A stretch of 38,265 nucleotides of DNA from a virus: positions 1 through 38,265 of the IMG/VR virus record IMGVR_UViG_3300042558_000080. One strand, 5' to 3'. Position 1 is the stretch's first letter. Every line of letters starts with the position of its first letter. The position numbers were made by a program, and so were the translations under genes. This document shows positions 6,185 to 24,443 of the stretch, piece by piece. The notes below the pieces were generated by a model that made no database searches, was not told the origin of the DNA, and saw only the letters and a list, made by a program, of their open reading frames with translations.

Positions 6185-6440
6185 GCAAGCCGTAGCAAGC
6201 CTTGGCTGTGCGCTGTGCCATCACTTGCATGGCGACCATGATCCGGGGCCAGTGGAGCTTCATCACCTAAGAGCAGGGGGATGGGGCAAAGGCGGATATC
6301 TAACTTTGATGGGCCTATGCTACGAACATCATCGTGGCAATAAGGGTATTCACGGATTGGGGACTAGGGGCTTTGTGAAATATTATGGAGTCACTCAGCA
6401 AGAACTGCTTGAGTGGACACTAAACAAGATAGGAACATGA
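6147..6440 (+). CDS. Ref-like HNH nuclease (recombination enhancement family)
   Basis: 97 aa from ATG 6147. An in-frame TTG at 6159 would give a product starting at the conserved TNQEKKHKQAV segment and is a real alternative, because related proteins begin near there. Features: LGCALCHHLH (paired Cys), VELHHLRAGG, LTLMGLCYEHHRGNKGIHG. This is the Cys/His pattern of the P1 Ref (RecA-dependent nuclease) and NinG-like families, with HH as the likely metal and catalytic histidines. It likely nicks DNA in recombination intermediates. It lies directly after ninB. Confidence 0.75.
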   Translation: MESRLTNQEKKHKQAVASLGCALCHHLHGDHDPGPVELHHLRAGGWGKGGYLTLMGLCYEHHRGNKGIHGLGTRGFVKYYGVTQQELLEWTLNKIGT

Positions 6441-8945: not shown

Positions 8946-9368
8946 ATGCCATCAATACCTAAGACACAATGCGCTGAGTACCAATGCAAAGGCCCAAGCA
9001 TTAAGGGATCTGTGTACTGTGTAGATCACGCGCCAGCAGCTAAGACAACTGAAGACCGCAAGACCTTTAATGCCCATTACAACAACAAGGCTTGGCTATC
9101 AATACGCAACAGGCAGCTATCAACACAACCATTGTGCCAAGCATGTCTGTTAGATGGTCAGGTTATGTCAGCTAATCACGTTGACCATGTGTTCCCTTGG
9201 ACAGCTATAGGTGAACACGCATTTAGGCGCAACTTGTTCCAAAGCCTGTGTGAGACACATCACGGGGTCAAATCAGGGCTTGAAAAGAAGGGCGTGTACA
9301 GACACTACGTTGAGCCTGTTAAAGATTATAAATCTGAGGACTATGTTTATGTAATGTTGAATGCGTAA
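8946..9368 (+). CDS. HNH endonuclease of the packaging module
   Basis: 140 aa. N-terminal Cys cluster (C9, C14, C25, H28) and C64-x2-C67, then the HNH core: NHVDHVFPW (H78, D80, H81), N96, and SLCETHHGVKS (C102, H105/H106, K109). HNH proteins in this position, just before the small terminase, resemble HK97 gp74, which assists terminase cutting at cos. That role here is inference from position and family. Only a weak ribosome binding site is visible. A possible late promoter and a cos-like region follow. Confidence 0.85.
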   Translation: MPSIPKTQCAEYQCKGPSIKGSVYCVDHAPAAKTTEDRKTFNAHYNNKAWLSIRNRQLSTQPLCQACLLDGQVMSANHVDHVFPWTAIGEHAFRRNLFQSLCETHHGVKSGLEKKGVYRHYVEPVKDYKSEDYVYVMLNA

Positions 9369-9376
9369 TGAGTTAA

Positions 9377-9406
9377 CTGACAGACGCTTAAAAAATAAAA
9401 AATAAT
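9377..9406 (+). promoter_or_regulatory. Putative late promoter upstream of the terminase genes
   Basis: -35 CTGACA (9377-9382, 5 of 6), 18-bp spacer, -10 AATAAT (9401-9406, 5 of 6), in the A-rich stretch after the HNH gene. It would read through the G-run region into the terminase and head genes. Confidence 0.42.
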
Positions 9407-9552
9407 ACTTAGAAACTAATTCTATTTGGAACTGTTAAAGAGCAAGCGCGAACTCAATTACGGGGGGGTACAAAGTCAGAGGGGGGGAGTTTGCGTGGGA
9501 ATTCCCTAAATGTGCTACGCTTGCGTCAGACAAGACAAAAGGAACTCAACTT
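9407..9552. other. Gene-free packaging region, candidate cos/terminase-recognition site
   Basis: No ORF. The segment between the HNH and small terminase genes holds two G7 runs (9462-9468 and 9481-9487) separated by 12 nt, a perfect palindrome GGGAATTCCC (9497-9506), and a direct repeat TTGCGT (9491-9496 and 9521-9526). HNH-plus-P27-terminase phages typically carry cos here. G-runs and repeats are consistent with nick sites and terminase binding, but the exact cut cannot be read from sequence. Confidence 0.5.
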
Positions 9553-9924
9553 ATGGCAAAAAAACCTCGTCACATCCTTGGCTACTTAAACGATCCGTCC
9601 ACTTGGGACAAGGCTGCGTTTGAAACGGCTATTCGCGCAGAAGTCGAAGCCTCGACAGGAACACTCACGGCATCTGACGAACTGTTGGTTGGCGCATTGG
9701 TCATCACTGTTGACAGCTTGCTGACTGCTGAAATTAACATCCGTGAGAGGGGTCATGTCACGGTTTACGGCAACAACGAAGGCGTAACAGCTTGGTTCAA
9801 GATTCGCACTGAGATGGCTGACAAGGCTATCAAGATGCTGGCTGAGTTGGGGCTTGTTGCCCGTGGTCGCCCAAAGTTGAAGGCAAAAGTGAGTGATGTA
9901 GATGAGCTATTCGCCACTGCTTAA
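9553..9924 (+). CDS. terS: Terminase small subunit (P27 family)
   Basis: 123 aa; AAAGGA lies about 8 nt before ATG 9553. The middle of the protein (LLVGALVITVDSLLTAEINI, then VTVYGNNEGVTAWFKIRTEM) and the C-terminal LAELGLVARGRPKLK fit the P27-like small terminase family. It recognises phage DNA at the packaging site and delivers it to the large subunit. Overlaps the large subunit gene by 23 nt. Confidence 0.82.
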   Translation: MAKKPRHILGYLNDPSTWDKAAFETAIRAEVEASTGTLTASDELLVGALVITVDSLLTAEINIRERGHVTVYGNNEGVTAWFKIRTEMADKAIKMLAELGLVARGRPKLKAKVSDVDELFATA

Positions 9925-11581
9925 CCCTGCGTTTGAGTATGCGGTAGCGGTGACTCGGGGTGACATTCAGGCGTGTGAGGATGTCAAACTAGCTTGCCAA
10001 CGGTTCTTGGATATGGTCGAACGTAAGGATGCGCCTTACGAGTTTGTCCCTGCCAAGGCTGAACACATCCTCAAATTCGTCAAGTTTTGCCGCCATGTCA
10101 AAGGCCCGGATGCCGGGAAATCCATTGAGCTACAGCCGTTTCAGGTCATGTACTTGGCGGCTATCTACGGATTTAGGGACAGGCGTGACCACACATACCG
10201 ATATGTCACTGATGTCATTTTGTTCGTGCCTCGCAAATCTGGCAAGACAACCATTGCGTCCATCATTGCGCTGTATGAGTTGCAGTTTGGTGATGCTGGT
10301 GCTGAAGTGTTTACTCTGGCTACCAACAGGGATCAAGCGAGTATTTGCTTTGATTCGTCCAAGGCTATCGTAGAAAACATGAAGCCTGAGTTGGGGGCTA
10401 AGTTTATTGCTTACCGTAGTGAACTCAAGAAGGCTGGCGACTCAACCTCTACTTACCGGGCGCTGTCACGGGAGAACCGTAAGACAGGTGACGGTAAAAA
10501 CCCTTCTTGCGCCATGATTGACGAGGCTGCTCAGATTACTGAGAGACAGTCAATTGAGGTGTTGCACTCGGGTATGGGCGCTCGGAAGAACCCGCTGCGT
10601 ATGTACCTGACAACTGCCAGCTTCACTAAGGAAACCAAGTTCTTTGAAGACCTTTCCCACTTTCGTACTGTCTTGCGTGGCGCTTCTGCTGATAGCTTTC
10701 GCTGGTTTGGTCTACTGTATAGCATTGATCCCGGAGATAATTGGGCTGACCCTGCGGTATGGGGCAAAGCGAACCCGATGCTTGGGGTATCGGTCACGAC
10801 TCAGCACATTGCACAAATGGCTGAAGAAGCGTCTGCCAAGCCAGCAAGCCTGAACGAGTTTCTGTGCAAGCAGTTGAACATTTATGTGTCGGCTAACTCT
10901 GCTTGGGTTGACCGTAGGTATTGGGATGAGTCGATTGCGCCATTCCCGACTGACAAACCAGAATCGACATTTGTTGCGTTTGACTTGGCGCACACACGGG
11001 ACTTGAACGCTGTTTGCACTTTGCACAGGTACAGCGAAGAAAACTTCTATGCCAAGTTCCAATTCTTTTTGCCAGAAGAAAGCATTGAGCTAATCCCGAA
11101 CCACTACAAGAGCATTTTTTTACAGGCCAAGTCAACTGGCATATTGAGGCTTACGCCGGGTAACGTAACTGACCTGACCGAGATTCAAAATTACATCAAG
11201 CAAGAGTGCGAGAAGTACAACGTCAAAGAGATAGCGTATGACCCATACAACGCCGCTGCTTTAGTGGCAAACCTGTACGCTGATGGCTTGCCTGTAAAAA
11301 AGGTTGGTCAGGGCATGGCAATGCTGTCAAACCCTTCCAAGACCACTGAGCAACTGATTCTGAAGAAGGCGATTCACCATGATGGCAACCCGTTTGTTGG
11401 TTGGCAGCTAGGAAACTGCGAGGTTTACACTGATGTCAACGGCAACGTAAAGGTCAGGAAGAACGAAGCAGACCCGTCAGCCAAAGTGGACGGTATTATT
11501 GCCATGATTATGGCTTTGCACTGCCATTTGGATAACGTATTTGTCAGTGATTCATTTGGCTTTAGGTCGCTTGAGTGGTAA
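9902..11581 (+). CDS. terL: Terminase large subunit
   Basis: 559 aa. Walker A-like motif VPRKSGKTT (residues 109-117), Walker B AMIDE (204-208), and a coupling-type segment further on (MYLTTASF). The C-terminal RNase H-like nuclease has AFDLAHTRD, YDPYNAAAL and the late DGIIAMIMA segment with conserved Asp residues. Size and motif order fit the HK97-type terminase family. It is the ATP-driven packaging motor and cutter. Start chosen at ATG 9902 inside the end of terS. Confidence 0.93.
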   Translation: MSYSPLLNPAFEYAVAVTRGDIQACEDVKLACQRFLDMVERKDAPYEFVPAKAEHILKFVKFCRHVKGPDAGKSIELQPFQVMYLAAIYGFRDRRDHTYRYVTDVILFVPRKSGKTTIASIIALYELQFGDAGAEVFTLATNRDQASICFDSSKAIVENMKPELGAKFIAYRSELKKAGDSTSTYRALSRENRKTGDGKNPSCAMIDEAAQITERQSIEVLHSGMGARKNPLRMYLTTASFTKETKFFEDLSHFRTVLRGASADSFRWFGLLYSIDPGDNWADPAVWGKANPMLGVSVTTQHIAQMAEEASAKPASLNEFLCKQLNIYVSANSAWVDRRYWDESIAPFPTDKPESTFVAFDLAHTRDLNAVCTLHRYSEENFYAKFQFFLPEESIELIPNHYKSIFLQAKSTGILRLTPGNVTDLTEIQNYIKQECEKYNVKEIAYDPYNAAALVANLYADGLPVKKVGQGMAMLSNPSKTTEQLILKKAIHHDGNPFVGWQLGNCEVYTDVNGNVKVRKNEADPSAKVDGIIAMIMALHCHLDNVFVSDSFGFRSLEW

Positions 11582-11605
11582 AGTGTAGGGAATTGAGGAG
11601 AAATC

Positions 11606-13003
11606 ATGGCGATTTTTGACATTTTCAAGCGCAAAAACACTCAGTCTGAGAGCAATACTTTGTTCGGTCAGACAGCCCTTGGTAACAACATTGTTTATCA
11701 GGGCAGTGACAAACGTGGTGGTGTTAACACCCAAATCCTCTATGTGACCACTGCCAGCACCACAACTGCTGGTCGCCCGGTGGATATGTCTGTGTTGACT
11801 AGAAACAGCACAATCATGTCCTGCGTGGGGGTAAAAGCCCGTGCTTTGGCTCAGTTGCCAATCAAGATTTGCTGCGAAACGGCTGATGGTAAAACCGTTG
11901 ATGCAATAAAAGGCGAAGGTGTTGGGGCGCGTGATCGGGCAAAAGCCAAACAAGTTGCTCGATTGCTGAACACGCCAAACAACTTTCAGAGCAAGTACGA
12001 GTTTTGGTATCAATGGCTGATGTGGTACGAGTTGTCAGGTGAAGCCTTTACTTTGTGGTGGAGGAAGGACCAAAACAGCACTACCGAGACTCCGCTGGAA
12101 ATGTATGTGTTGGATTCAACGCTGATTGCCGTGACCATCACGCCTACACGTTATCCAACCTTCCGTTTGTCCACTCCTAGCTATGGTTTCAACAAAGACC
12201 ATGACTTTAAGTATTTCCAAGTGATGCACACAAAGGAAATGGCGTGGCAAGGCTCGGCTGGCTTTAACAAAGCGATTTTGGCGACTGAGTTGGTTGGCCT
12301 TGACCAAGATATTGACCTGTACGCCAACTTTGTCATGCAAAACGGCGCGAAGCCTAGCGGTATGTTTGTGACCGATCAGGTTATTCCTGATGGCAAGTAC
12401 AAAGAGATTGCAGCCCGTCTGAAAGAGGCGTGGAACAACATGACAGGCAGCAAGACCAGTGACCCAAGCAAGCCGGGTCAGGGTATGTTGCTTGACCAAG
12501 GCATGAAGTACCAGAAACTGGAAATGCTGACCCTGCAAGATACAGATGCTGCTGCTCTAAAAGCTCAAACAATGCGCCGCATTTGTGGTGTGTTTGGTGT
12601 GCCGCCATCAATGATTGGTATTTCTGATGGTAAATTTAACAATAGCCAAACAGCATTGGACGAGTTTTACAAAACTACAATGTATCCAACTATTGTTAAT
12701 GTGCAGCAAAAATTAACGCAACATTTGTTTGATGGCTATCCAAGTCTTTGTGTTGAGTTTGACACCAAGGATTTCTTAAAGGGTGCGCCTTTGGATCAGA
12801 TGAACTTTGCCACTTCTGGCGTAAAAGGTGGCATTATGACACCTAACGAAGCCCGTAACTACATGAATTTGCCATCAGTTGAAGGTGGTGATGAATTGGT
12901 AAAAGACGCAAAAGACGCTGAACCAATCCCCGGCTCAAGTCCACAAGATACGGGTGGCGGTGGTGGTAATCAGACCAGAAAAATGAACATTGGCACTACT
13001 TGA
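11606..13003 (+). CDS. HK97-family portal protein
   Basis: 465 aa, GAGGAG 8-13 nt before ATG 11606. Family hallmarks include the early SVLTRNSTIMSCVGVKARAL, the LLNTPN segment, WYQWLMWYELSGEAF, and the late FGVPPSMIG and DEFYKTTMYPTI. The dodecameric portal forms the DNA entry channel at one capsid vertex and docks terminase. The C-terminal ~25 residues are Gly/Pro-rich and disordered (QDTGGGGGNQ). Confidence 0.92.
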   Translation: MAIFDIFKRKNTQSESNTLFGQTALGNNIVYQGSDKRGGVNTQILYVTTASTTTAGRPVDMSVLTRNSTIMSCVGVKARALAQLPIKICCETADGKTVDAIKGEGVGARDRAKAKQVARLLNTPNNFQSKYEFWYQWLMWYELSGEAFTLWWRKDQNSTTETPLEMYVLDSTLIAVTITPTRYPTFRLSTPSYGFNKDHDFKYFQVMHTKEMAWQGSAGFNKAILATELVGLDQDIDLYANFVMQNGAKPSGMFVTDQVIPDGKYKEIAARLKEAWNNMTGSKTSDPSKPGQGMLLDQGMKYQKLEMLTLQDTDAAALKAQTMRRICGVFGVPPSMIGISDGKFNNSQTALDEFYKTTMYPTIVNVQQKLTQHLFDGYPSLCVEFDTKDFLKGAPLDQMNFATSGVKGGIMTPNEARNYMNLPSVEGGDELVKDAKDAEPIPGSSPQDTGGGGGNQTRKMNIGTT

Positions 13004-13009
13004 TATATC

Positions 13010-13222
13010 ATGCGTACTGATACACAATATCTGGTAGCATTAGCCAAACAGGTCAAACGACCTAAAAAGTTGCCTGTACTTCTAGGGCAACCCCCTAAAA
13101 TACAGGACAATAACCAATCAATTGCTTTAGGGGCAATCAATGAAGACATTGAATCTTATCTGCGAAGCCAAGCTGAATCTCAACGAGAAAGCCGACAACG
13201 GTCAACCGTCTGGACAGATTGA
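13010..13222 (+). CDS. Doubtful small ORF overlapping the protease gene
   Basis: 70 aa, ATG 13010, 6 nt after the portal stop and without a clear ribosome binding site. It is basic at the N-terminus (LVALAKQVKRPKKLPVLLGQ) and polar at the C-terminus. It overlaps the protease gene by 83 nt in another frame, and a hairpin (13073-13106) lies inside it. It may be a genuine short protein or just an open frame over a leader; I cannot decide. Confidence 0.3.
   Translation: MRTDTQYLVALAKQVKRPKKLPVLLGQPPKIQDNNQSIALGAINEDIESYLRSQAESQRESRQRSTVWTD
13073..13106 (+). promoter_or_regulatory. Two-step hairpin upstream of the prohead protease
   Basis: Outer arms CCTGTA (13073-13078) and TACAGG (13101-13106) enclose an inner hairpin TAGGG (13083-13087) / CCCTA (13093-13097) with a 5-nt loop. 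It lies 34 nt before the protease ATG and has no T-run. Possible RNA-processing or stability element. Confidence 0.4.
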
Positions 13223-13919
13223 GGCTCGTATTACGACCTTTGGCCCAAGAGAAGGTCAAGATGGTCGTAGGTTTTTTTACAAGCCAGAAGGCTTTATGCA
13301 GTGGGCTAAAGAGTTTGCCGAAATGGGCCGACCACTGCCTATGTACGTCAATCACAACGCTGATGCCATTCCTGTTGGCGAGTGGACAATGATTGAGATG
13401 GATGACGAGGGCATGAATGCTACTGGTCGTTTGTATCTGAACACCACTGCTGGCTCTGACCTGTACCAAGTGATGAAAGAAAGCCCCAATATGTTTGGCG
13501 GTGTTTCTGTTGGCGCTTACGCAGAAGAATATCAAATGGTCAATGCAGAAGGCGAACCAGACCAATCAGAAGACGCATATTTCCAGATTACCAAAGGTGG
13601 TCTGCGTGAGACTAGCGTTGTTATGCATCCAAATAACATGAAGGCAGAGATCAAGAAGTTGGAGTATTTCCGACCTGATGGCTCTGCTGATTTGAAAGTA
13701 TTGGAAGAAGCCCTGCGGGATGCAGGTCTGTCCAAGCAGATGTCGGTTGCCGCCGCATCTGTGTTCAAAACGGTAATTGAACAGCGTGATGCTGTTGAAA
13801 AGCCTATTGAAAATGCGCCAATTCAGAGTGATTCTGATGCGGAGGCAACCGCTGAAATTCTTGCTGCTCTAGAGCAACGTGAACTTCTGAAACTCCTTGA
13901 TAAACGTCTTAAAGGTTAA
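13140..13919 (+). CDS. HK97-type prohead protease (peptidase S78)
   Basis: 259 aa. The catalytic His is probably H72 in MYVNHNADAIPVG, and the catalytic Ser S123 in MFGGVSVGAYAEE; the RLYLNTTAGSDLYQ strand between them is typical. A GGLRETSVVMHPNN segment follows. The last ~70 residues are a helical, acidic tail (EEALRDAGLSKQMS and on) that may help scaffold. It should cleave the delta domain of the capsid protein encoded next. The gene ends 3 nt before the capsid ATG. Confidence 0.9.
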   Translation: MKTLNLICEAKLNLNEKADNGQPSGQIEARITTFGPREGQDGRRFFYKPEGFMQWAKEFAEMGRPLPMYVNHNADAIPVGEWTMIEMDDEGMNATGRLYLNTTAGSDLYQVMKESPNMFGGVSVGAYAEEYQMVNAEGEPDQSEDAYFQITKGGLRETSVVMHPNNMKAEIKKLEYFRPDGSADLKVLEEALRDAGLSKQMSVAAASVFKTVIEQRDAVEKPIENAPIQSDSDAEATAEILAALEQRELLKLLDKRLKG

Positions 13920-13922
13920 ATC

Positions 13923-15272
13923 ATGTCTCAAGTTATCCTCGAAAAATTGGATGCCATCGAAGCTAAACAAGCTGAAAGCATCGTGGCTGTAGAAGCCAAA
14001 ATCCCTGCTGCTGTTGAAGCTGTCAAAGCTGAATTCAGCGAAATGGTGTCTGCTCTGGAGGCCAAAGTTGCTTCTATCAATATGCCCGAGTTCATTCGCA
14101 CTCCTGCCAAGACTGTTCGCCAAGATGTGAACCGTTCGGTGCGTGAGCAACTGGCTACCTTTTACAAAGGCAACAACCGTTTGGAAAAAGAACTGCAAAT
14201 CTTTGCAGACGAAGCTCAGATGGATGCTTACCTGAAAGAAGCCTCTGCTCTGACTGCTGGCGGTGATGGCAAGGGTGGTCGTACTGCTTACGATCCAGTG
14301 TTTGCTGCTCTGCGTTTGGCTAACCCCATGCGTGGTTTGTCGCGCACTGTGGCTACCGATGGTTCTAGCTATCAGTTCCGTGTCAAAACTGGCAACGCTG
14401 GTGTGGCTTGGGGCTATGCAATTCAGAACAACGGTGCAAGCACTACTGAAGACACAAGCATCTGGCAGTTGGTTCTGCAAGACCTGAACGTGCAGTTCCC
14501 AATCCGTACTGCTGCTTTGGACGATATTGACGGCTTGGAAGCCAACGTGGTTGACGATATGCTTGCTGAGTTCGCTCAAGCTGAAGCTTTGTCAATGATC
14601 CAGAACAACGACCAAGCTGCACAGTCAAGTACTAACCCTTACGGTGGTACTAACGGTCTGCGCGGTCTGGATCAGTACGCTGGTTCTGCTGCTACCTACG
14701 CTGGTGGTACTTCTACCGCTGCTGCTTTCGGCACTTCTGGCACTGGCTCTACAAGCGGTCTGCATTCGCTGGCTACTTATGACCAGATCACTTCTAACGT
14801 CAACACTGTTGGTGCTAACGCAATCCAATACAAAGACGTTATCAACACGATCTACGCTTTGCCACAGCAGTATTGGACTCCTAACACCAAGTTTATGGTC
14901 AGCCCAATCTTGGCTCAGGCAATCCGTGGTCTGCAAGACACCAATGGACGTCCAATTTTCAACTCTGTTGAATCGTTGAACCCCGATGGCATTATTGGTC
15001 AACTGCTTGGCTTTGATGTTGTGATGAACAAGTATTTGGACAACCCAAGCCAATCTACGACTGGTACTGCTGGCACAACCAGCCTGTATCCAATGTATTT
15101 TGGTGATTGGAGCCGTTGCCACACCATCATCGACCGCCTGAACATGGTCATGCGCCGCTATGACCAGACTTTGCCCGGTTTCATCACCTTCTTTGGTGAG
15201 AAGCGTTTGGCAACTTCTGTGCGTGATCCAAACGCACTGGTGCGTTATCGCTCGACAGGTACAGCTACCTGA
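13923..15272 (+). CDS. Major capsid protein 1 (HK97 fold) with N-terminal delta domain
   Basis: 449 aa. Residues 1 to about 100 form a charged coiled-coil delta (scaffold) domain (ILEKLDAIEAKQAESIVAVE and on), expected to be removed by the adjacent protease. From about residue 110 (EASALTAGGDGKGGRT) the HK97-fold domain follows, with AALRLANPMRGLSR, NAGVAWGYAIQNNG, DDMLAEFAQAEALS and the C-terminal PGFITFFGEKRLATSV. It ends just before a strong terminator (15279-15305). A second capsid-like gene encodes a paralogue of the mature part only. Confidence 0.93.
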   Translation: MSQVILEKLDAIEAKQAESIVAVEAKIPAAVEAVKAEFSEMVSALEAKVASINMPEFIRTPAKTVRQDVNRSVREQLATFYKGNNRLEKELQIFADEAQMDAYLKEASALTAGGDGKGGRTAYDPVFAALRLANPMRGLSRTVATDGSSYQFRVKTGNAGVAWGYAIQNNGASTTEDTSIWQLVLQDLNVQFPIRTAALDDIDGLEANVVDDMLAEFAQAEALSMIQNNDQAAQSSTNPYGGTNGLRGLDQYAGSAATYAGGTSTAAAFGTSGTGSTSGLHSLATYDQITSNVNTVGANAIQYKDVINTIYALPQQYWTPNTKFMVSPILAQAIRGLQDTNGRPIFNSVESLNPDGIIGQLLGFDVVMNKYLDNPSQSTTGTAGTTSLYPMYFGDWSRCHTIIDRLNMVMRRYDQTLPGFITFFGEKRLATSVRDPNALVRYRSTGTAT

Positions 15273-15278
15273 TAAATC

Positions 15279-15305
15279 GGAGGGGCGTAACTGCCCCTCC
15301 TTTTT
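15279..15305 (+). terminator. Intrinsic terminator between the two capsid genes
   Basis: GGAGGGGC (15279-15286) pairs perfectly with GCCCCTCC (15293-15300) across a 6-nt loop, followed by TTTTT. It lies 6 nt after the stop of capsid gene 1 and 23 nt before capsid gene 2, so it probably lowers expression of everything downstream relative to capsid protein 1. Confidence 0.85.
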
Positions 15306-15328
15306 GTGCCAATAATTTAGGAACTGTT

Positions 15329-16357
15329 ATGACCATTACCGAACGCATCCTGTCTGGAATCAAGCAAACTTTAGAAACTGGCGATAAAGTCACAATCGAC
15401 TTGCGCGAGGCATCTGCTATCACAGGCTCTGGTGACGGGGTTGGTGGTCGCACTTTCTTTGACAACGCATTTGCTGCACTGCGTTTTGCAAACCCAATTC
15501 GTGAGATGTCGCGTGTTATCCCTGCCTCTGGCTCAAGCGTACAGTTTGTTGCTAAGACAGGTAATGCGGCAAACTCAACAAACCCGTTTGGATATACGTT
15601 CACGCCTGACAGCGGTTCGCCAAACATCAACACATCTATCTGGCAATTGCCCACTCGCGTCATTACTGCTCAACTGCCTGTTCGTTCAGCGGTTATGTCG
15701 GATGTGAATTACCTGAATGAAACGCTTGTTGAAGATTTGATGCTGGAATTTGCACAGATCGAAGGCGCTTCAATGGTTCTCAACAATGACCAAGCTGGCT
15801 CAACCACAACAATTAACGGTGGTACAAGCGGTTTGCGTGGTCTGAATATGTACACCAGTGCTGCTGCATCTGCTTTCGGTACAAGTGGAACAGCGATTAC
15901 CAACGGTATCCACTCCATTGCTACATTTACACAAGCAGCAGCAGCGGTTACATACTCTGATATTACAGACATGACCCGCTTGTTTCCTGCTCAGTATTGG
16001 AATCTTCCCGGTACGGCTTGGATGATGCATCCACAGACAATTCACGAACTGCGTAACTTGGGCGGTGCTAACGCTATTAAGCAATTTGCTGAAGTTGGTG
16101 ATGATGATGGTGGCGCTGTGACGCACATCTTTGGATTCCCTGTGATTGCTAACCCAAACATCCAAACTACTGGCGCTGGACGGTTTAACATTTACTTGGC
16201 TAACTGGCCTCGTTTTGTGACCATTGCTGATGTTGAAGAAATGACCATTCAAGCAATGGAGCAAAGCAGTCCCGGCTTTATCACGCTATATGCGGAAAAA
16301 CGTCTGGTAAGCACTGTGCGTGACCCGTTTGCTGGCATTCGACTTGTGGGTGTTTAA
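15329..16357 (+). CDS. Second major-capsid paralogue lacking the delta domain
   Basis: 342 aa; TAGGAA lies about 6 nt before ATG 15329. After a short N-terminus, from residue about 27 it aligns with capsid protein 1 to the end: EASAITGSGDGVGGRTFFDN, AALRFANPIREMSR, TSIWQLPTR, LEFAQIEGASMVLNNDQAGS, GGTSGLRGLNMY, and PGFITLYAEKRLVSTVRDP. It has no coiled-coil scaffold domain, so it may enter the capsid without proteolysis, for instance as a minor shell or vertex (pentamer) subunit or decoration. It sits downstream of a terminator, consistent with low copy number. Function inferred from homology. Confidence 0.88.
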   Translation: MTITERILSGIKQTLETGDKVTIDLREASAITGSGDGVGGRTFFDNAFAALRFANPIREMSRVIPASGSSVQFVAKTGNAANSTNPFGYTFTPDSGSPNINTSIWQLPTRVITAQLPVRSAVMSDVNYLNETLVEDLMLEFAQIEGASMVLNNDQAGSTTTINGGTSGLRGLNMYTSAAASAFGTSGTAITNGIHSIATFTQAAAAVTYSDITDMTRLFPAQYWNLPGTAWMMHPQTIHELRNLGGANAIKQFAEVGDDDGGAVTHIFGFPVIANPNIQTTGAGRFNIYLANWPRFVTIADVEEMTIQAMEQSSPGFITLYAEKRLVSTVRDPFAGIRLVGV

Positions 16358-16360
16358 ACC

Positions 16361-17032
16361 ATGAGCGTTGACAACTATCAATACGCTGCGCCCTTTGGCG
16401 CTCAGACGCGCAATCCGTTTAACTATGCAAAGGTTGAGCAGATTGGGCGTGATAGTGTCACTGCGTGGTTGACGCTTGATGAAATCACGCAACAGCTAAA
16501 CCTGTTTCAAGACGAAAGCCAAGATACCTATCTGTCTTCTCTTGAACTGGCAACACGACAAGCAATTGAAGACTACTTGGGAATGTCTATCTTCCCGGTA
16601 AGCTATCGGGTTTGGTATGGTTCTGAAAGCCTTGTGGCATCTCCTATCAGTCTTGATTTGCCAGAAGTTAGCCAGAATCTTTACAACAATCAGCCCGGTG
16701 TAACCATCAATTCGGTTGGTTACTGGAATGATGCTTTCCCGCCTGTGTTTACAACACTTGCAAGCACAAGCTATTACTACGATGCCTCGGGCAACAAAGT
16801 AATTGTCAACAACTTGCCGACTGACGTTAATTCGGTGATGACTGCGCCAATCATTGTGCAGTACACAACTGTTGCCAATCCTTTGGCGGCTTATCCTGTC
16901 ATCAAGCAAGCTGGTCTGTTGTTGCTTACGCACTTGTACAACAATCGTGCAAATTCAACAGCAACACAGCTTAAAGACATTCCGTTTGGTGTGACCACTT
17001 TGTTGCGGTCTTACAAACCATTGGTGATGTAA
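16361..17032 (+). CDS. Head-tail connector (gp6-like adaptor)
   Basis: 223 aa. The central WLTLDEITQQLNLFQDESQD, LELATRQAIEDYLGMSIFPV and the C-terminal AGLLLLTHLYNNR segment match the DNA-packaging/gp6-like connector family that forms the ring beneath the portal. It is longer than typical adaptors because of an inserted beta-rich middle part. Followed immediately by the next joining protein. Confidence 0.78.
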   Translation: MSVDNYQYAAPFGAQTRNPFNYAKVEQIGRDSVTAWLTLDEITQQLNLFQDESQDTYLSSLELATRQAIEDYLGMSIFPVSYRVWYGSESLVASPISLDLPEVSQNLYNNQPGVTINSVGYWNDAFPPVFTTLASTSYYYDASGNKVIVNNLPTDVNSVMTAPIIVQYTTVANPLAAYPVIKQAGLLLLTHLYNNRANSTATQLKDIPFGVTTLLRSYKPLVM

Positions 17033-17377
17033 ATGTCAATCGCTCGTTTTGAGAACATCAACATCAACAACCTGACTTTTACCAAGTCGGCGTTTGGTGA
17101 GTCTGCGACTGTTCAGGCATTGTGGTTTGCGACACGGGCGCGGGTATCTTCTGTTGCAAACAGTCTGAAGATTGCTGAGAAGTATCGGCTGTATCAAGAC
17201 ATGACCAACTTCACGCTGAACTACACGCCAAACATGAAAGAAATAGTGGATAACCAAAACCTCTATTCGATTACATGGCGTGGTAAAGATTGGCGTATTG
17301 ACAGCGCAAGAGAGACTGATGATCGAATGAATATCATCTTCTTGTGCTATCGTTCTGATCCAGTTACGGCGGTCTAA
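17033..17377 (+). CDS. Head closure / head-tail joining protein
   Basis: 114 aa, adjacent to the connector stop and overlapping the next ATG by one base. A small beta-rich protein whose end (ITWRGKDWRIDSARETDDRM, then NIIFLCYR) resembles head-tail joining proteins of the SPP1 gp16/HK97 gp7 type. Assignment rests mostly on size, predicted strands and position. Confidence 0.7.
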   Translation: MSIARFENININNLTFTKSAFGESATVQALWFATRARVSSVANSLKIAEKYRLYQDMTNFTLNYTPNMKEIVDNQNLYSITWRGKDWRIDSARETDDRMNIIFLCYRSDPVTAV

Positions 17378-17796
17378 TGGCAACACAATTAAACCCTGTT
17401 GTTTACGGTAAAGCCATCCAGTACCAATTGGCTAACATTGTCACGCCTGTGCCTGTGTATGCGGCTTTTAACCGTAACTTTGCTACACAGCCCAAGTTTA
17501 TTACTTGGATGCTCCGTAACGTGCATCAACCAGTCTATACCGGCACACAGCAAAGCAACAAAGGTATTGACCGTCCTGTATTTCAGATTTCTATTTTTAC
17601 TCAGCAGATTGAAGATGGTTTTACAATCTCAAATCAGATTCTGCAAGCCTTGCACGGGTATAGTGGGATTTTGGGAAGTCCGGCAGATGGCTTTTACATT
17701 TCTAAAGCTGATGTTATGTGGCTATACAACAGTTACAACGATGAGGAAAAAATGGCGCAAATCTTCTTAGATTGCACCATTGACATCCCGGCGTAA
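17377..17796 (+). CDS. Tail terminator/completion protein (DUF3168-like)
   Basis: 139 aa. The pattern FQISIFTQQIEDGFTISNQI plus the C-terminal KMAQIFLDCTIDIPA strand fits the tail terminator fold (lambda gpU-like), which caps the tail tube at the head end. Located between head closure and tail tube genes, the canonical position. Confidence 0.72.
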   Translation: MATQLNPVVYGKAIQYQLANIVTPVPVYAAFNRNFATQPKFITWMLRNVHQPVYTGTQQSNKGIDRPVFQISIFTQQIEDGFTISNQILQALHGYSGILGSPADGFYISKADVMWLYNSYNDEEKMAQIFLDCTIDIPA

Positions 17797-17833
17797 TACA
17801 AGACAATTGTTCAACTTTTGAAGGATACTCAAA

Positions 17834-18328
17834 ATGGCTTTACCAAACAAAGTTCTCCCCGGTTTTAGCGCAGCGTTGTACGCACAGCCCGGAGCCACAC
17901 CTACTCCTTTGACAATTGCTCAGTTGTCCTTGGTCGCTAGCGTGTCCCCACTTGCTGTTAGCGGAAACCTGATTCCTGTCGAAGCAATCCCTGCTTTCGG
18001 TCAAGATGATGCTGTGGCTAGTTTCAGCGTGGCGGGTTCGCGTCAATCTGACAAGATCCCCGTTCAGGCTGCTCCAACTTCCATGACCATTACTGCCGCA
18101 TGGAATCCTGCTGATACCAACTTGCTGTTGATGCGTTCTGATGCCTATTCTGGCGTGATTGACCGCACGTTTATCATCTCGGCTACAGAGGGAACAAACA
18201 TCGTTTATTACGCCTTTAACGGGCGCGTAGGCCAGTTTCAAATTGATTCTGCTCCCGGCGCAGAAGCCAAGGCAACATTTACCATCCATCCACGTGGCAA
18301 CCAGTACGGTTGGTCCAACAACGCATAA
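17834..18328 (+). CDS. Major tail tube protein 1
   Basis: 164 aa; GAAGGAT lies about 8 nt before ATG 17834. Features: VLPGFSAALYAQPGATPTPL, PVEAIPAFGQDDAVASF, DKIPVQAAPTSMTITAAWNP, then TIHPRGNQYGWSNN at the end. It has the size and beta-rich composition of siphovirus tail-tube subunits and lies in their usual place. A close paralogue follows 9 nt after its stop. Confidence 0.82.
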   Translation: MALPNKVLPGFSAALYAQPGATPTPLTIAQLSLVASVSPLAVSGNLIPVEAIPAFGQDDAVASFSVAGSRQSDKIPVQAAPTSMTITAAWNPADTNLLLMRSDAYSGVIDRTFIISATEGTNIVYYAFNGRVGQFQIDSAPGAEAKATFTIHPRGNQYGWSNNA

Positions 18329-18337
18329 GGAGTCATC

Positions 18338-18856
18338 ATGGCTATCCCTGCAAAAGTTCTTCCCGGTTTTAGCGCATCGCTGTTTATGCAATCAGCGGCT
18401 ACGCCAACACCTTTGACTACAGCAAACCTGTCTGTTTGGTCTGCACAAGTTGCTACGATTGTTGGTACTTCTGCTGGCGGTACAGGCGCTGCTGGTGTTG
18501 CTCTGCCTGTTGAAGCTATCCCTGCTTTTGGTATGGACGATGCTGTAGCAAGTTTTGGTGTTGCTGGCTCTCGTCAAAGCGACAAGATTCCTGTGCAAGC
18601 GGCTCCTACAAGCATGACCATTACGGCTGCTTGGAACCCTGCTGACGCAGCCTTGTTGCAAATCCGTGCTGATGCTTACTCTGGTGTTGTTGACCGCACT
18701 TTTGTAGTTGCAGCAGTGGAAGGCACAAACACTATCGCTTATGCGTTTAACGGTCGCGTGGGTCAATTCCAGATTGACGCTGCTCCCGGCGCAGAAGCCA
18801 AATGTATGTTCACAATTCATCCTCGGGGCAACCAGTACGGCTGGTCGAACAACTGA
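18338..18856 (+). CDS. Major tail tube protein 2 (tandem paralogue)
   Basis: 172 aa; AAGGAGT ahead of ATG 18338. It aligns with tail protein 1 along its whole length: VLPGFSASLFMQSAATPTPL, PVEAIPAFGMDDAVASF, an identical KIPVQAAPTSMTITAAWNPA segment, and the same NQYGWSNN end. The main difference is a Gly/Ala-rich insert (VGTSAGGTGAAG, about residues 43-54). No terminator separates the copies, so both should be made in quantity. It could co-assemble or provide a distinct tube segment. Confidence 0.82.
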   Translation: MAIPAKVLPGFSASLFMQSAATPTPLTTANLSVWSAQVATIVGTSAGGTGAAGVALPVEAIPAFGMDDAVASFGVAGSRQSDKIPVQAAPTSMTITAAWNPADAALLQIRADAYSGVVDRTFVVAAVEGTNTIAYAFNGRVGQFQIDAAPGAEAKCMFTIHPRGNQYGWSNN

Positions 18857-19062
18857 TGAAACTATCTGACGCAATTGAAGCAATTGTGACCAGCTACGGT
18901 GACATTGATCTTGTTGCCCGTGGCATGGTGGTGGACGCTAGTGAGCTTGCACAGGCTACTGCTCAACCCGACACAGCCGAAGCCATTGCTTTGGCTTTGC
19001 TGAAGAAGTACAACGTGACTGCTCCTGTGGTGGTCATTGAAGAAGTCGATACAACAGAGTAA
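18856..19062 (+). CDS. Small tail-module protein, hypothetical
   Basis: 68 aa from ATG 18856, overlapping the previous stop by one base. Helical N-terminus (MKLSDAIEAIVTSYGDIDLV), acidic C-terminus (VVVIEEVDTTE). An upstream in-frame start at 18802 is inside the tail-tube gene and rejected. Function unknown. Confidence 0.62.
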   Translation: MKLSDAIEAIVTSYGDIDLVARGMVVDASELAQATAQPDTAEAIALALLKKYNVTAPVVVIEEVDTTE

Positions 19063-19068
19063 CAAGAC

Positions 19069-19290
19069 ATGATAGTAAAAGACAGTAACGATCTTCTGAA
19101 CTTTCTTGTAGCCCAATCCGATTCATCAAAGAATTGGTTTGGGTTTCAGCAACAAAAGCTGACTGCCATTAGTCTTGCCCATGAAATAGCGGCTAGACAC
19201 GCCGACAAGATGACAGCAAATGAAATCGTAAATTTTGTTAGCGAGTTAAACAACGAGCTATATCAAAAAATTATCAAACCGAGAACATGA
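19069..19290 (+). CDS. Small hypothetical protein in tail module
   Basis: 73 aa: MIVKDSNDLLNFLVAQSDSS, then KNWFGFQQQKLTAISLAHEI and a helical end. No family recognised. It lies 6 nt after the previous stop and 1 nt before the gp10-like gene. Confidence 0.65.
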   Translation: MIVKDSNDLLNFLVAQSDSSKNWFGFQQQKLTAISLAHEIAARHADKMTANEIVNFVSELNNELYQKIIKPRT

Positions 19291-19291
19291 C

Positions 19292-19846
19292 ATGGGTGGC
19301 GTTACCATTAAGCTAGAAGGTCTTGGTGACGTTATCAAAGTCTTTGATGAGCTTGCCCAAGAAATTGGCGATAAAAAGGCTCGTAGCAAAATCTTGATCC
19401 CTGCGGCAAGGGATGCAATCAAACCAGTTTTAGCTTTAGCCCAACAAAACGCACCAGTGGATACAGGCGCTTTGCAATTGTTGTTGCAAGTTGAAGCCAG
19501 AAGACCCACAAGCCGCGACAGACGATCCAAATACATTACGGGCAACGATGCCGTAATTGCTGCTGTCACTACAGCCTCTGGTAAAAAGATGAAGGCCATG
19601 AGCGAAGGCAAAGGGCTAGAACGCACTAGAAGGCGCATGATTAAGCTAGGCTCAACCAAAGAACAAGCAGACACTTTTGAAGGCTTTAAAAGTGATGCAA
19701 GGGCCATTGCACAAGAGTTTGGCACAGGTAAAATGCCAGCACAGCCATACCTAAGACCAGCGTTAGAGAGTCAATCACAGGAAACCGTGAATAGGTTGGC
19801 TGAAGGTTTACGCAAATACATTTCAAAATTTAGGGCAAAAACATGA
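19292..19846 (+). CDS. HK97 gp10-like tail-completion protein
   Basis: 184 aa. Signatures of the HK97-gp10 family: IKLEGLGDVIKVFDELAQEI at the start, LAQQNAPVDTGALQLLLQVE in the middle, and AQEFGTGKMPAQPYLRPALE towards the end. Usually this gene lies before the tail terminator; here it follows the tail-tube genes. It probably acts in tail completion or the head-tail joint. Overlaps the next gene by 4 nt. Confidence 0.82.
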   Translation: MGGVTIKLEGLGDVIKVFDELAQEIGDKKARSKILIPAARDAIKPVLALAQQNAPVDTGALQLLLQVEARRPTSRDRRSKYITGNDAVIAAVTTASGKKMKAMSEGKGLERTRRRMIKLGSTKEQADTFEGFKSDARAIAQEFGTGKMPAQPYLRPALESQSQETVNRLAEGLRKYISKFRAKT

Positions 19847-20334
19847 CAAAACTCAGTTCTGCATTTGGCGCAACTTATGACAAGATGCGCCGCGAAATCT
19901 TGACTCGCAAATTTGAACTTGGCGGCTTTACGTTTAAAGTCCGTGTTCCTTTGGTTGCAGAGTCTGACGCGATTTACACGCGCATCACCAATCCTGACGA
20001 AGCAAAAATTGAAAGCATTTATCAATTGCTTGTTGAGCCTTTGCAAAAGTTTCGGGATTCATCTGAGGCCACTGAATCAGGCTTTGAGTTTTTGGAAAAC
20101 GATGTGTTGGTGCAAGGAAAGTCTTTGCGCGAAGCAGCCAGAAACAAAGCGTTGACTGAAGCTAGGATTGTTGAATACATCAAGTTGCTTGTTCCAGAAG
20201 ACCCTGAAGCAAGTTTAAGTGACGTTACATATGATGACATTGAGGCTGAGTGGCCTTTGAATGTTCAGTTGGCGTTGTGCGAAAAGATCGGTGAAGTTAT
20301 CAGTCCTAACTACAAGGAAACTCGGGGAAACTGA
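19843..20334 (+). CDS. Tail assembly chaperone (G-like), frameshift donor
   Basis: 163 aa, acidic and helical (KFELGGFTFKVRVPLVAESD, then YQLLVEPLQKF and YDDIEAEWPLNVQLALCEKI). It lies directly before the tape measure gene, the place of lambda G and T. Its last codons CGG GGA AAC TGA contain the slippery heptamer G GGA AAC (20325-20331), and the -1 frame continues open to 20699. So a share of ribosomes should make a 285-aa G-T fusion. The chaperone coats the tape measure during tail assembly. Confidence 0.85.
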   Translation: MTKLSSAFGATYDKMRREILTRKFELGGFTFKVRVPLVAESDAIYTRITNPDEAKIESIYQLLVEPLQKFRDSSEATESGFEFLENDVLVQGKSLREAARNKALTEARIVEYIKLLVPEDPEASLSDVTYDDIEAEWPLNVQLALCEKIGEVISPNYKETRGN

Positions 20335-20379
20335 TTGGCTCGTTAAAGACGCAAGTTGAAACAGCTTTAATCTTTAACG
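20325..20379 (+). promoter_or_regulatory. -1 programmed ribosomal frameshift signal of the tail chaperone genes
   Basis: Slippery heptamer GGGAAAC (20325-20331) sits one codon before the TGA stop. After a 9-nt spacer comes a hairpin with outer arms CGTTAAAGA (20341-20349) and TCTTTAACG (20371-20379), and an inner stem AAGTTG/CAGCTT (20353-20358, 20362-20367; one G-U). This mirrors the lambda G-GT signal GGGAAAG. Confidence 0.85.
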
Positions 20380-20699
20380 GGCATACACCCGAATCAATTG
20401 CGGCGCTGGATGGAATAACGATGGCGCGTCTTCAGACTATGTACGGGGACGGGGTTATTGGGAATCACAAGACAATTGAAATGCTTGGAACGCTTATAAC
20501 TGGTGTGTTTAATTATGTTCGTGATTCAAAATCACGACCTTATACACTAGCCAATGTAGCGGGTTCAGCCTATGATTACCTCTACCCTCCGCTGCCTCCA
20601 GAAGCGCAAAAAGAGGCGGCAAACAACAGCTTGCTTGCCTTCTTAAGCCAAGCACCGGGATTTGAAAAAGACAGGTTTAAGGTGAAAAACGATGGCTAA
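20331..20699 (+). CDS. Tail assembly chaperone T-like extension (made by -1 frameshift)
   Basis: Open in the -1 frame from the slippery site: after the shift the reading is LIGSLKTQVETALIFNGHTP and on, 122 aa. An internal ATG at 20421 gives 92 aa but lacks a strong ribosome binding site, and the upstream 30 codons look coding, so the fusion is the main product. The T part (GSAYDYLYPPLPPEAQKEAA) is expected to bind the tape measure and tail tube proteins. Its end overlaps the tape measure start by 8 nt. Confidence 0.8.
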   Translation: MIGSLKTQVETALIFNGHTPESIAALDGITMARLQTMYGDGVIGNHKTIEMLGTLITGVFNYVRDSKSRPYTLANVAGSAYDYLYPPLPPEAQKEAANNSLLAFLSQAPGFEKDRFKVKNDG

Positions 20700-22752
20700 T
20701 ATGATTGCCCGATTGGGCGTTTTGCTTGGTATTGACAGTGCTGAGTTTGTTCGCGGCATTGATGGGGCAACCAAAAAGTTAGAGCAATTTGGAGATGCTG
20801 CTCAACAGTATGGAAAGGTTGCGGCTACAGCTTTAACTGCGGCTGGAATTGCGGCTCTTAATTACGCAGATCAAATTGTTGACGTAGCCAAAGCCAACGA
20901 CATTGCTGTTGGATCAGTTTTAAAGTTGCGCAACGCTCTGCAAGATAACGGAGGCGAAGCAGACAACGCTGCAAAAATGCTTTCATCCTTTGTTGGCTTT
21001 GTTGACAAGGCGGCTGATGGTGGATTGGCTGCACAGCAAACAATGTCACGGTTGGGCGTTACTCTAAAAGATGTTGGCAATTTAAGCATTGATGAATTGC
21101 AAAACAAGTTAGTTAAGTCTTTGGCTAATGTCGAAGATCCAATAACTCGTAACGCAATGGCGATGGAAGTTTTTGGCAAGGCCGCAAAGGGCGTGGACTT
21201 TGTTGGTATGGCTGACAGCATGAGTGACTTGAGCACTATTGCTGATGAACAAGCTAAAGCCTTTCAAGATGCTGCTGATGTAATTGGAATCTTTGAAAAG
21301 CAATCTCGTGATTTGGCTGTTGTCTTGGTGACCGAGTTAGGACCGCCATTGCTTGAAACTATCAATTATTTTTCACAGTTAAGCAGTCAATCTAATTTAT
21401 TTGGAAGCGTTTTTAAAGTTGTTTTTCAAACAGTGGCTGTTGTTGCTGCTAACGTGGCATTTGTCATCAAGAGCATTGTTACTGAAATAGAACTGCTAGT
21501 TAAGCAGACAATTGCATTGGCAACCTTTGATTTTGCCAAGTTTAAAAATCTTGGTGAAGAAGGCCGAAAAGAAGCATTAGCTAATTTGGCTGCATTGCAA
21601 GCGTTTGAATTTAGAGTCATGGGTTCGCCAGATGGACGCAAAGGGTTAGACGATCCCCGTATTCCGCAATCTAGCAAACCAAGTGGCCCACTACGCGCAA
21701 CAAAAGTTGCTGTAGACCCTGAAGCCAAACGATTGGCTGCTGAAGCTGAACGCGAAGCCAAACGTATACGCGAAAACGATATAAAAATTGGCGAACTTAT
21801 GAATCGTCAAATTGACGAAAGGTTAAAAGCAGAACAAAAACTGCGTGATGAAGAAATAAAACTTGGTGAAAACAGAAACCGTCAAGTTGAAACGTATTTC
21901 AAAACCAACGAGCAAATCAAAGAACGTCAGACGCTTGAGTCTTTGTCAATTGATCGTCAACGAACAATTCTTGACTATGAACAACAGACAAGGTTGATGC
22001 GTGAAAAAGACAAGCAACTAGCACTAGACATTTTTAACATTCGCGCACAGCAGGAAGACAAGATAAGGGCTATCCAGCAAGAGACAAATTTGTTGGAAGC
22101 TGATCGTGAAGAACGAATTAAGAACCAAAACCAATTAGCTGAAAAAGCAATTGAGTTGGCAAAGGAGCGCAACCGTGTAATGCGCGAAATGCAAGAGGGT
22201 GACGAAACAAAAGGCTTTGGCAAACGTGCTGAAGAATTTTTTGCCTTTGCTCCAACAGCAATGGAGAACGGCGCTCAAATGTTTGATTCGTTAATGGGCA
22301 ACATGACCAGTGCGCTAGATAACTTTGTCAGCACTGGCAAGCTGTCTTTTAAAGACCTGACGCGCAGCATCATTCAGGACTTGATCCGCATACAACTACG
22401 GGCGCAAATGACAAGTTTGTTTAGCCGTATGTTTGGCATGAGTGGATCGCCATATCAACCTGCCGCTGTTATGGGACTGCCGGGATATGCTGATGGCGGT
22501 TCGCCTGAAGTTGGTCGCCCAAGTATTGTTGGCGAACGTGGCCCTGAAATCTTTGTGCCTCGCACTGCTGGAACAATCATTCCTAACCATGCTCTTGGCA
22601 ACATGGGAAGCACCACCAACGTAACAAACAACTACATTAATGCCATTGACACCAAATCGTTTGAAGACAGGCTTCTAGGCAGTTCTAACGCGATTTGGGC
22701 GGCTAATCAGTATGCCAACAAATCATTGGCAGTTAACAGGGGTCGTGCATGA
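20692..22752 (+). CDS. Tail tape measure protein
   Basis: 686 aa. Begins with the typical MANMIARLGVLLGIDSAEFV and helical heptads, has hydrophobic stretches at about 240-275 (VFKVVFQTVAVVAANVAFVI), a long charged coiled-coil at about 340-500, and the lambda H-like C-terminus with GYADGGSPEVGRPSIVGERG and PEIFVPRTAGTIIPNHAL. It sets tail length and is ejected with the DNA. At roughly 0.15 nm per residue the tail would be near 100 nm, an estimate. Confidence 0.92.
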   Translation: MANMIARLGVLLGIDSAEFVRGIDGATKKLEQFGDAAQQYGKVAATALTAAGIAALNYADQIVDVAKANDIAVGSVLKLRNALQDNGGEADNAAKMLSSFVGFVDKAADGGLAAQQTMSRLGVTLKDVGNLSIDELQNKLVKSLANVEDPITRNAMAMEVFGKAAKGVDFVGMADSMSDLSTIADEQAKAFQDAADVIGIFEKQSRDLAVVLVTELGPPLLETINYFSQLSSQSNLFGSVFKVVFQTVAVVAANVAFVIKSIVTEIELLVKQTIALATFDFAKFKNLGEEGRKEALANLAALQAFEFRVMGSPDGRKGLDDPRIPQSSKPSGPLRATKVAVDPEAKRLAAEAEREAKRIRENDIKIGELMNRQIDERLKAEQKLRDEEIKLGENRNRQVETYFKTNEQIKERQTLESLSIDRQRTILDYEQQTRLMREKDKQLALDIFNIRAQQEDKIRAIQQETNLLEADREERIKNQNQLAEKAIELAKERNRVMREMQEGDETKGFGKRAEEFFAFAPTAMENGAQMFDSLMGNMTSALDNFVSTGKLSFKDLTRSIIQDLIRIQLRAQMTSLFSRMFGMSGSPYQPAAVMGLPGYADGGSPEVGRPSIVGERGPEIFVPRTAGTIIPNHALGNMGSTTNVTNNYINAIDTKSFEDRLLGSSNAIWAANQYANKSLAVNRGRA

Positions 22753-23345
22753 GCTTCCAAACCATTTTTGAGAATCAGGAATCCATGACGGTGAACAACC
22801 GCCGCATGGTTGGTCAACAAGTCGCTAGGTCGGGCTTTATTACTGTGGCGCAGTACCTAACGGCTGTGCCTTGGGTGTTCACGGTCACGCCTAACAACTT
22901 TCTGTACTACCCAACAGCACGGGCAATAATTCAGGCGATTGACAACAAAGACCGCCAGTTGCCAGAAACGATTACGTTCAACAGTAGTCAGTTGTCGTGG
23001 TTCACTCAAAGGCTTGGAACGGCTACTACAGCCACTTTAAATGGTACGCCTACACCAAACACACAAACGCTTGCCTTGACCTCTAACGGGACGTTTAAGG
23101 CTGGTGATTTCATCATGGTAGGCGGCTATACCTACAAGATCACAGCAGACTCTGCTGGCTCGTCTGTGAACATTCACAGGCCGTTGATTGGTACGCCTAG
23201 CTCTGGTGCTACTGTGTCAATTGGAAACGCTTGCACATTTAGTGTTGTGGCTGAAGTTTGCCCAACGTATACTCTTACTCCAATGACAAACGGCGCTTTT
23301 GTCAATTGGGATCAACCGTTCGTTTTTCGGGAATACATCACATGA
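22749..23345 (+). CDS. Minor tail/distal tail protein
   Basis: 198 aa, ATGA overlap with the tape measure stop. The first ~90 residues (QVARSGFITVAQYLTAVPWV, FTVTPNNFLYYPTARAIIQA) and a beta-rich second half with GDFIMVGGYTYKITAD suggest a distal tail or baseplate component (lambda M/L position). No specific family recognised. Confidence 0.65.
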   Translation: MSFQTIFENQESMTVNNRRMVGQQVARSGFITVAQYLTAVPWVFTVTPNNFLYYPTARAIIQAIDNKDRQLPETITFNSSQLSWFTQRLGTATTATLNGTPTPNTQTLALTSNGTFKAGDFIMVGGYTYKITADSAGSSVNIHRPLIGTPSSGATVSIGNACTFSVVAEVCPTYTLTPMTNGAFVNWDQPFVFREYIT

Positions 23346-23992
23346 CAACAATCAATGCTGTATCTGGCCCACAGATTAACCATGCAGAGTTTGTGAGGCT
23401 GACAGTTGGCAATGCTGCTACTGTCTACACGTTCTGCAACGCTGCTGCGCCTATCACGGTTGGTGGCATTACGTTTAGCAACCTTGGCTCTTTGCTTAGT
23501 GTTGGAGATGTTCAGCGTGACATCAAGGCCACATCTGATGACATGACAATTCAATTGACGGGTATTGACCCGGCAAACATTGGCATCATCCTTGGCAACG
23601 ACATCAAAGGCTCATTGGTTGAAGTGTGGCGTGGATTCTTTGACGCAAACAACCAGATTATTACAACGCCTACAACGCAATTCTTTAAGCGTTATCAGGG
23701 GATCATCAGTGGCGTGTCAATTACTGAAGACTTTAACTCTGAACTGAGGCAAAGGATTGCTACTTGCTCAATTGCTTGTTCGTCTATGCGCCGCATTCTG
23801 GAAAACAGACTGTCAGGTGTAAAAACAAACAAAAGCAATTGGCAGTTTATCTATTCTGGCGATACCTCAATGAATCGTGTGTCTGAAATTTCAAACACAT
23901 ACTTTGACTTTGGGCAACCTCCAAAAACGCAAACGCAAGCCAGCGAGACTACTGTTGATGTAGACGTTAGTGTTTATGGCAACAGTAATTAA
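23342..23992 (+). CDS. Minor tail protein (DUF2163/DUF1833-like)
   Basis: 216 aa from ATG 23342 in an ATGA overlap; the in-frame start at 23258 lies inside the upstream gene. Features such as HAEFVRLTVGNAATVYTFCN and the later FKRYQGIISGVSITEDFNSE resemble phage proteins linking the distal tail to the central tip. Domain-level assignment is tentative. Upstream of the J-like tip gene. Confidence 0.66.
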   Translation: MTTINAVSGPQINHAEFVRLTVGNAATVYTFCNAAAPITVGGITFSNLGSLLSVGDVQRDIKATSDDMTIQLTGIDPANIGIILGNDIKGSLVEVWRGFFDANNQIITTPTTQFFKRYQGIISGVSITEDFNSELRQRIATCSIACSSMRRILENRLSGVKTNKSNWQFIYSGDTSMNRVSEISNTYFDFGQPPKTQTQASETTVDVDVSVYGNSN

Positions 23993-23994
23993 AC

Positions 23995-24441
23995 ATGATA
24001 AGACTAGCAACAAGATACGACATACCAAGACTGCTTGAGATTGTAGAAGCATATGCTTACGAAAATCCAATTAAAGTTCTTGGGCAAACGGCAAACCACT
24101 ATCCCAAATACGTTGAAGAACTGTTGTTTGGGATTATCAAAGGTCGTGGGTTTATCTTTATTGATAACAACATGACGGGAGCAATAATTGGCATTAAACA
24201 AAACAACATTTGGTGTCCACAAGTCAAAGAGTTGCATGAACTGTTGTGGTGGGTTGAGCCAGAGCATCGTAACGGCTCTATTGGCGGTAGGCTTTGGAAG
24301 GCTTACGACGAGGTTGCAAGCGTGATGCTAAAACAAGGGGAAGTTGATTGTGTTTACACATCAATTTCAGCATCAGGTCCGTTGATTGATTACACCAAGC
24401 GTGGCTACAAAGCTGTTGGTGCAAGTTTTGTGAAGGAATAA
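23995..24441 (+). CDS. GNAT-family acetyltransferase in the tail module
   Basis: 148 aa. The GNAT core is visible: [20 protein letters not shown] at the start, [16 protein letters not shown] strand pair, [20 protein letters not shown] with the acetyl-CoA-binding R-N-G-x-I-G-G loop, and [16 protein letters not shown] at the end. It lies between minor tail genes, where lambda has K and I. Substrate unknown; it could modify a structural or host protein. Similar GNATs occur in tail cassettes of other aquatic phages, from memory. Confidence 0.85.
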
Positions 24442-24443
24442 AA

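Follow-up and report, generated by a model that had tools for sequence, protein, structure and literature searches.

Organization of the capsid locus

The window analyzed here is a virus record of 38,265 bases, taken over its whole length. On its plus strand, the genes encoding the terminase large subunit, the portal protein, an S78 prohead protease, two capsid proteins (hereafter P1 and P2) and a head-tail adaptor follow one another in that order. The features considered, with their coordinates in the window and their strand, are as follows:

11606..13003, plus strand: portal protein (PF04860, E = 7.4e-60; phrog_12)
13140..13919, plus strand: prohead serine protease, S78 (PF04586, E = 9e-9; phrog_3244, head maturation protease)
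13923..15272, plus strand: P1, major capsid protein, 449 aa (PF05065, E = 4.3e-31; ATG start)
13923..14234, plus strand: N-terminal delta/scaffold-like region of P1, residues 1-104 (helices in the AF2 model; absent from P2)
15279..15305, plus strand: intrinsic-terminator-like hairpin, GGAGGGGCG-TAAC-TGCCCCTCC, followed by TTTTT, between P1 and P2
15317..15323, plus strand: TTAGGAA, a Shine-Dalgarno-like sequence 5 bases 5' of the P2 ATG (from the sequence)
15329..16357, plus strand: P2, second HK97-fold capsid protein, without a delta domain, 342 aa (PF05065, E = 4.9e-20; ATG start)
16361..17032, plus strand: head-tail adaptor, directly 3' of P2 (phrog_40; PF05135)

The boundary of the P1 region spanning residues 1-104 was placed according to the motif YLK-EASALT, which is common to P1 and P2. 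Upstream of the terminase genes, the window also contains a 140-aa ORF (8946-9368) that resembles an HNH endonuclease by eye.

Homology and predicted fold of P1 and P2

A preliminary description of this DNA had proposed that two adjacent genes encode HK97-fold capsid proteins. This proposal was borne out, as both ORFs are present and they are homologous along most of the length of P2. A search of the window with P2 recovered P1 (E = 3.4e-68, 46% identity over P2 residues 23-338), the full joint alignment of the two proteins gave 40% identity across 337 aligned columns, and profile-profile comparison of the P1 and P2 families gave a probability of 100 (E = 6e-87, 316 columns). On the basis of these sequence comparisons, the resemblance is homology, chance being excluded. 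Both proteins scored above the gathering cut-off of the Phage_capsid family PF05065 (108.8 bits for P1 and 72.5 bits for P2, with a cut-off of 24.2), and both matched PHROG major head families. PF05065 was the only Pfam family matched at E ≤0.01, and neither P1 nor P2 matched the T4-type capsid family in Pfam.

According to sequence profiles, the closest solved relatives are the Rhodobacter capsulatus GTA (RcGTA) capsid protein Rcc01687 (6tb9, 6tsu) and HK97 gp5, the GTA capsid being the nearest for both copies (E = 7e-9 for P1 and 0.003 for P2). The predicted structure of P2, for which AF2 model confidence was medium (pLDDT 66), also matched HK97-fold capsids, with that of RcGTA scoring best (Z 21.5, 248 residues, rmsd 3.9). 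The P1 model gave weaker matches (Z 12.9 over 200 residues, rmsd 18.0; Z 12.2 over 149 residues, rmsd 5.5); its confidence was poor (pLDDT 57), too poor for comparison at domain level. In the joint alignment, fixed differences between P1 and P2 lie before the last strands (P1 352-367, P2 257-273), in a region that we take, from our reading of the HK97 fold, to be part of the A domain.

N-terminal regions

The N-terminus of P1 is about 79 residues longer than that of P2 and is predicted to be helical and delta/scaffold-like; AF2 places helices at residues 2-51, 65-82 and 97-108, with low to modest confidence (pLDDT block means mostly between 51 and 72). P2 begins with a single short conserved helix (residues 3-17) in its own AF2 model. 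A delta/scaffold domain is, as originally suggested, a feature of the first copy only. The motif EASA(L/I)TxG is found in both proteins, preceded by about 26 residues in P2 and about 105 in P1, and in both EASA(L/I)T leads into a glycine-rich segment that ends with GGRT. The S78 maturation protease presumably acts on P1, and may act on P2 as well; we infer a cleavage site close to EASA(L/I)T in P1, and possibly another in P2. The term “mature-length”, previously applied to the second copy, is apt insofar as the delta region is missing, but not strictly so, given the residues that still precede the motif.

Occurrence of the pair in relatives

Relatives were gathered by scanning viral contigs with P2, P1 and both copies from the cultured Methylophilaceae phage P19250A (KX815270), which yielded >300 loci. 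Profile HMMs identified P1 followed by P2 in 291 loci, and none of the >300 loci lacked P2 while having P1 and 1.2 kb or more of sequence beyond it. This number was also zero for the loci found by P1 queries alone, which constitute a fair test of absence. As loci from repeated scans overlap, the 162 non-identical complete pairs provide a safer count than the 291 loci; protein lengths within these pairs were narrowly distributed (326-360 aa for P2 and 442-477 aa for P1). The relatives sampled range down to an identity of roughly 59% in P1. The pair was also present in all five of the phage contigs from bacterial genome bins with sufficient room for it.

Within the phage collection, close relatives of P1 or P2 were found in no record other than that of P19250A, which has the same gene order, with a hairpin between the two copies. 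Its P1 homologue (60.5% identical) is annotated as a “gene transfer agent capsid protein”, and its P2 homologue (53.8% identical) is labelled “hypothetical protein”. No published description of the pair was found in the literature searched, a set that did not cover the original P19250A paper. The phages carrying the pair are a widespread group of small viruses of lake and ocean bacteria. Five contigs of this group (L316-L320) were binned with bacterial, and even archaeal (Nitrosotalea), assemblies, probably through binning errors.

Selection and age of the pair

Median dN/dS at dS values of 0.2-0.5 (pairwise, Nei-Gojobori) was 0.107 for P1 and 0.104 for P2; by this measure, both copies are under purifying selection. 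The rate of change of P2 is similar to that of the protease and the adaptor, and somewhat higher than that of P1. The preliminary description had argued that the second copy is kept because it is used, and had envisaged a survey of relatives and dN/dS estimates for each copy. Both analyses agree with that argument, which is strongly supported by the universality of P2 in the relatives sampled, its near-fixed length and purifying selection. The opposite possibility, that P2 is a decaying or neutral duplicate, could call on a single contig (L199, positions 5395-6348) bearing a deletion and a frameshift in P2, the sole broken copy encountered and one that may be an assembly error. This explanation has a negligible probability and is refuted by a dN/dS of about 0.1, the ancient split between the copies, the near-constancy of P2 length and the presence of P2 in all other relatives with enough sequence to contain it.

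In a quick tree, all P1 sequences were separated from all P2 sequences by one branch with 100% support. The duplication or joining that gave rise to the pair is therefore older than every sampled member, with no conversion since, and a recent duplication or gene conversion was rejected. Beyond its own family, each copy finds its nearest relative in the other copy (E = 3e-68); with P1 as the query, the next annotated phage capsid came at E = 3e-3 (from databases of different sizes). This difference favours a duplication within the P1-P2 lineage. Several potential outgroups were discarded. The head module in the deposited record of OM43 phage Venkman is T7-like, with a single annotated capsid gene, and is not comparable. 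The phages with similar terminases, Marinobacter AS1, Vibrio K256 and Morganella IME1369_02, also have one annotated capsid gene each, and their capsids are too distant for rooting of the P1/P2 split. The correlation between P1 and P2 distances (0.68) was no higher than that between P1 and the protease (0.74) or P2 and the protease (0.67). It therefore gives no sign of specific co-evolution between P1 and P2, and no extra support for contact between them.

The intergenic hairpin and expression of P2

The hairpin at 15279-15305 was the top-ranked terminator-like site found in positions 9300-24500. A GC-rich hairpin followed by a T-run lies between P1 and P2 in 130 of 133 distinct intergenic regions from the relatives, with stems of at least 7 bp in 126 of the 133 and 61 different 5' arms. 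In dinucleotide shuffles, a hairpin with a T-run was obtained in 195 of 665 cases (29%) and stems of at least 7 bp in 37 of 665 (6%). Applied elsewhere, the same test gave a positive result for 27 of the 141 stretches immediately downstream from P2 and for 2 of the 121 immediately upstream from P1. The more distant relatives have a quite different stem sequence and still possess the hairpin and T-run; it is therefore the structure, rather than the sequence, that is conserved. Detection in individual sequences, with comparison to shuffles, was chosen because MAFFT sets the stems out of register, so that alignment-based covariation was weak. A TTAGGAA/GGAA-like site occupies the same place before P2 in most relatives. 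In one contig (L072), the hairpin and P2 are separated by an insert with an ORF (positions 4413-5000) that, by eye, looks like a GIY-YIG homing endonuclease; neither capsid gene is disrupted.

In 151 of the 162 pairs, P1 showed the stronger codon bias (ENC of 39.0 vs 48.3 for P2 in the window). P2 and the connector genes lie downstream from the hairpin, a probable point of attenuation. Considered together with the ribosome-binding-like site proper to P2 and the weaker codon bias of this gene, this arrangement suggests that P1 is made in large amounts, and P2 and the connectors in smaller amounts, with termination predicted from sequence features.

Possible roles of P2 in the capsid

We consider P2 to be a sub-stoichiometric subunit of the shell, most likely the pentamer (vertex) protein, functionally similar to gp24 of T4, and we assign a probability of about 0.52 to this reading. 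P1 is the major capsid protein, and its N-terminal delta region would drive prohead assembly and then be removed by the upstream S78 protease. P2 would be an old, functionally specialised paralogue co-assembling with P1, as a minor subunit, in the same shell. Transcription would mostly end after P1, with low-rate read-through yielding P2 at a fraction of the P1 level. P2 would then most likely form the 11 non-portal vertices, corresponding to about 55 copies, versus about 360 copies of P1 if T=7, and would make use of the scaffold of P1 while carrying none of its own, like gp24 beside gp23. We infer placement at the vertices because the pentamer is the site that would need a minor full HK97-fold subunit in a small isometric head. 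The gp24-like role evoked in the preliminary description is the most economical reading and draws support from the conserved hairpin, from the lower codon bias of P2 and from its short propeptide, the five-fold placement being the more conjectural part. The hairpin would also lower expression of the downstream connector genes, and therefore fits any low-copy role in the head. Moreover, in most tailed phages, pentamers and hexamers are built from one and the same major capsid protein, T4 being the textbook exception, and a separate vertex protein is therefore not required. Another role suggested previously, decoration of the shell, is less likely, given that P2 has the complete HK97 fold of a shell subunit and is neither Ig-like nor a small cement protein. 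The minor vertex protein of Vibrio Peru-2 was dismissed as a parallel, as it is an Ig-fold decoration on a shell with a single major capsid protein.

The T4 proteins gp23 and gp24 are about 20% identical, unlike P1 and P2, which have 46% identity and belong to a phage of about 38 kb. T4 gp24 forms 11 vertices and is thought to be derived from gp23 through duplication (PMC9958956; PMC3012670). It loses 10 N-terminal residues, versus 65 for gp23, and some of the mutations bypassing gp24 lie within the A domain of gp23 (PMC9958956). The fixed differences between P1 and P2 in their putative A-domain region are in keeping with this precedent. The two systems thus resemble each other in having a paralogous HK97-fold pair with a much shorter prosequence in the second member, of about 26 residues in P2 versus about 105 in P1 if cleavage occurs as predicted. 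P2 would, if our reading is right, work like gp24, but it lies outside the T4 capsid family as defined by Pfam. To our knowledge, the shells of the solved RcGTA and HK97 heads consist of one capsid protein, with no second paralogue.

Alternatively, P2 may mix with P1 in the hexameric lattice, randomly or in a pattern, and tune the size or stability of the shell, as in two-component encapsulins. The Family 2B encapsulin of Streptomyces lydicus likewise has two HK97-fold shell proteins, and these can co-assemble; HK97-fold shells of variable mixed composition do exist (PMC12407261). The fold of P2 is complete, and its model matches both S. lydicus shell proteins (Z 15.3 and 14.9). Nevertheless, the attenuating hairpin and weaker codon bias point to lower expression of P2, and the strictly fixed pair and P2 length are better suited to a defined position than to a variable mix, making such mixing unlikely. 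The S. lydicus encapsulin is a cellular compartment without portal, terminase or protease, whereas P1 and P2 are encoded in a phage head operon: two-component encapsulin genes would be expected outside such an operon, with cargo, and here the pair sits among terminase, portal, protease and adaptor genes. This setting, with P1 and the adaptor on either side of P2 in relatives also, argues against the idea that P2 assembles outside the main virion, into a capsule of its own or into a second kind of small particle resembling an encapsulin or of satellite size. Although an HK97-fold subunit without a delta domain resembles encapsulins, which are among the structural matches of P2, there is no linked cargo-like gene and P2 expression is probably below that of P1; we regard this possibility as very improbable. 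A location at or near the portal vertex, or a function as an assembly initiator or size determinant, with a handful of copies and no regular place in the lattice, would accord with the position of the P2 gene between the major capsid and head-tail adaptor genes, and with its sharing of an attenuation point with the connector genes. However, the HK97 fold of P2 is retained in full, spine helix and P-domain strands included, which exceeds the needs of a connector, and we know of no portal-vertex adaptor with this fold. We therefore view this role as doubtful, if less so than a separate particle.

Returning to P2 as a vertex protein, we tentatively propose that an obligate shell made of two HK97-fold proteins may have arisen independently in this lineage of siphophages of about 38 kb with GTA-like capsids, the vertex subunit having no scaffold and a dose set by a conserved leaky terminator, and the main capsid protein having lost the ability to form pentamers. 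If true, this would constitute an independent, lineage-wide case of a two-protein shell in a small phage. As the copies are still 40-46% identical and vary across >100 relatives, the residues fixing five-fold versus six-fold position would become testable, as would the way in which RNA termination sets subunit dose. A conserved “hypothetical” gene of widespread aquatic viruses would also gain a candidate function.

Tandem duplication of a tail-protein gene

The window contains a second tandem duplication, of two genes resembling those for major tail proteins (17834-18328 and 18338-18856; 72% identical). Unlike the capsid pair, this duplication varies among relatives, with two copies in 30 and one copy in 27 of the 57 with enough downstream sequence. 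P19250A differs from the window in this respect, having one tail-tube-like gene rather than two.
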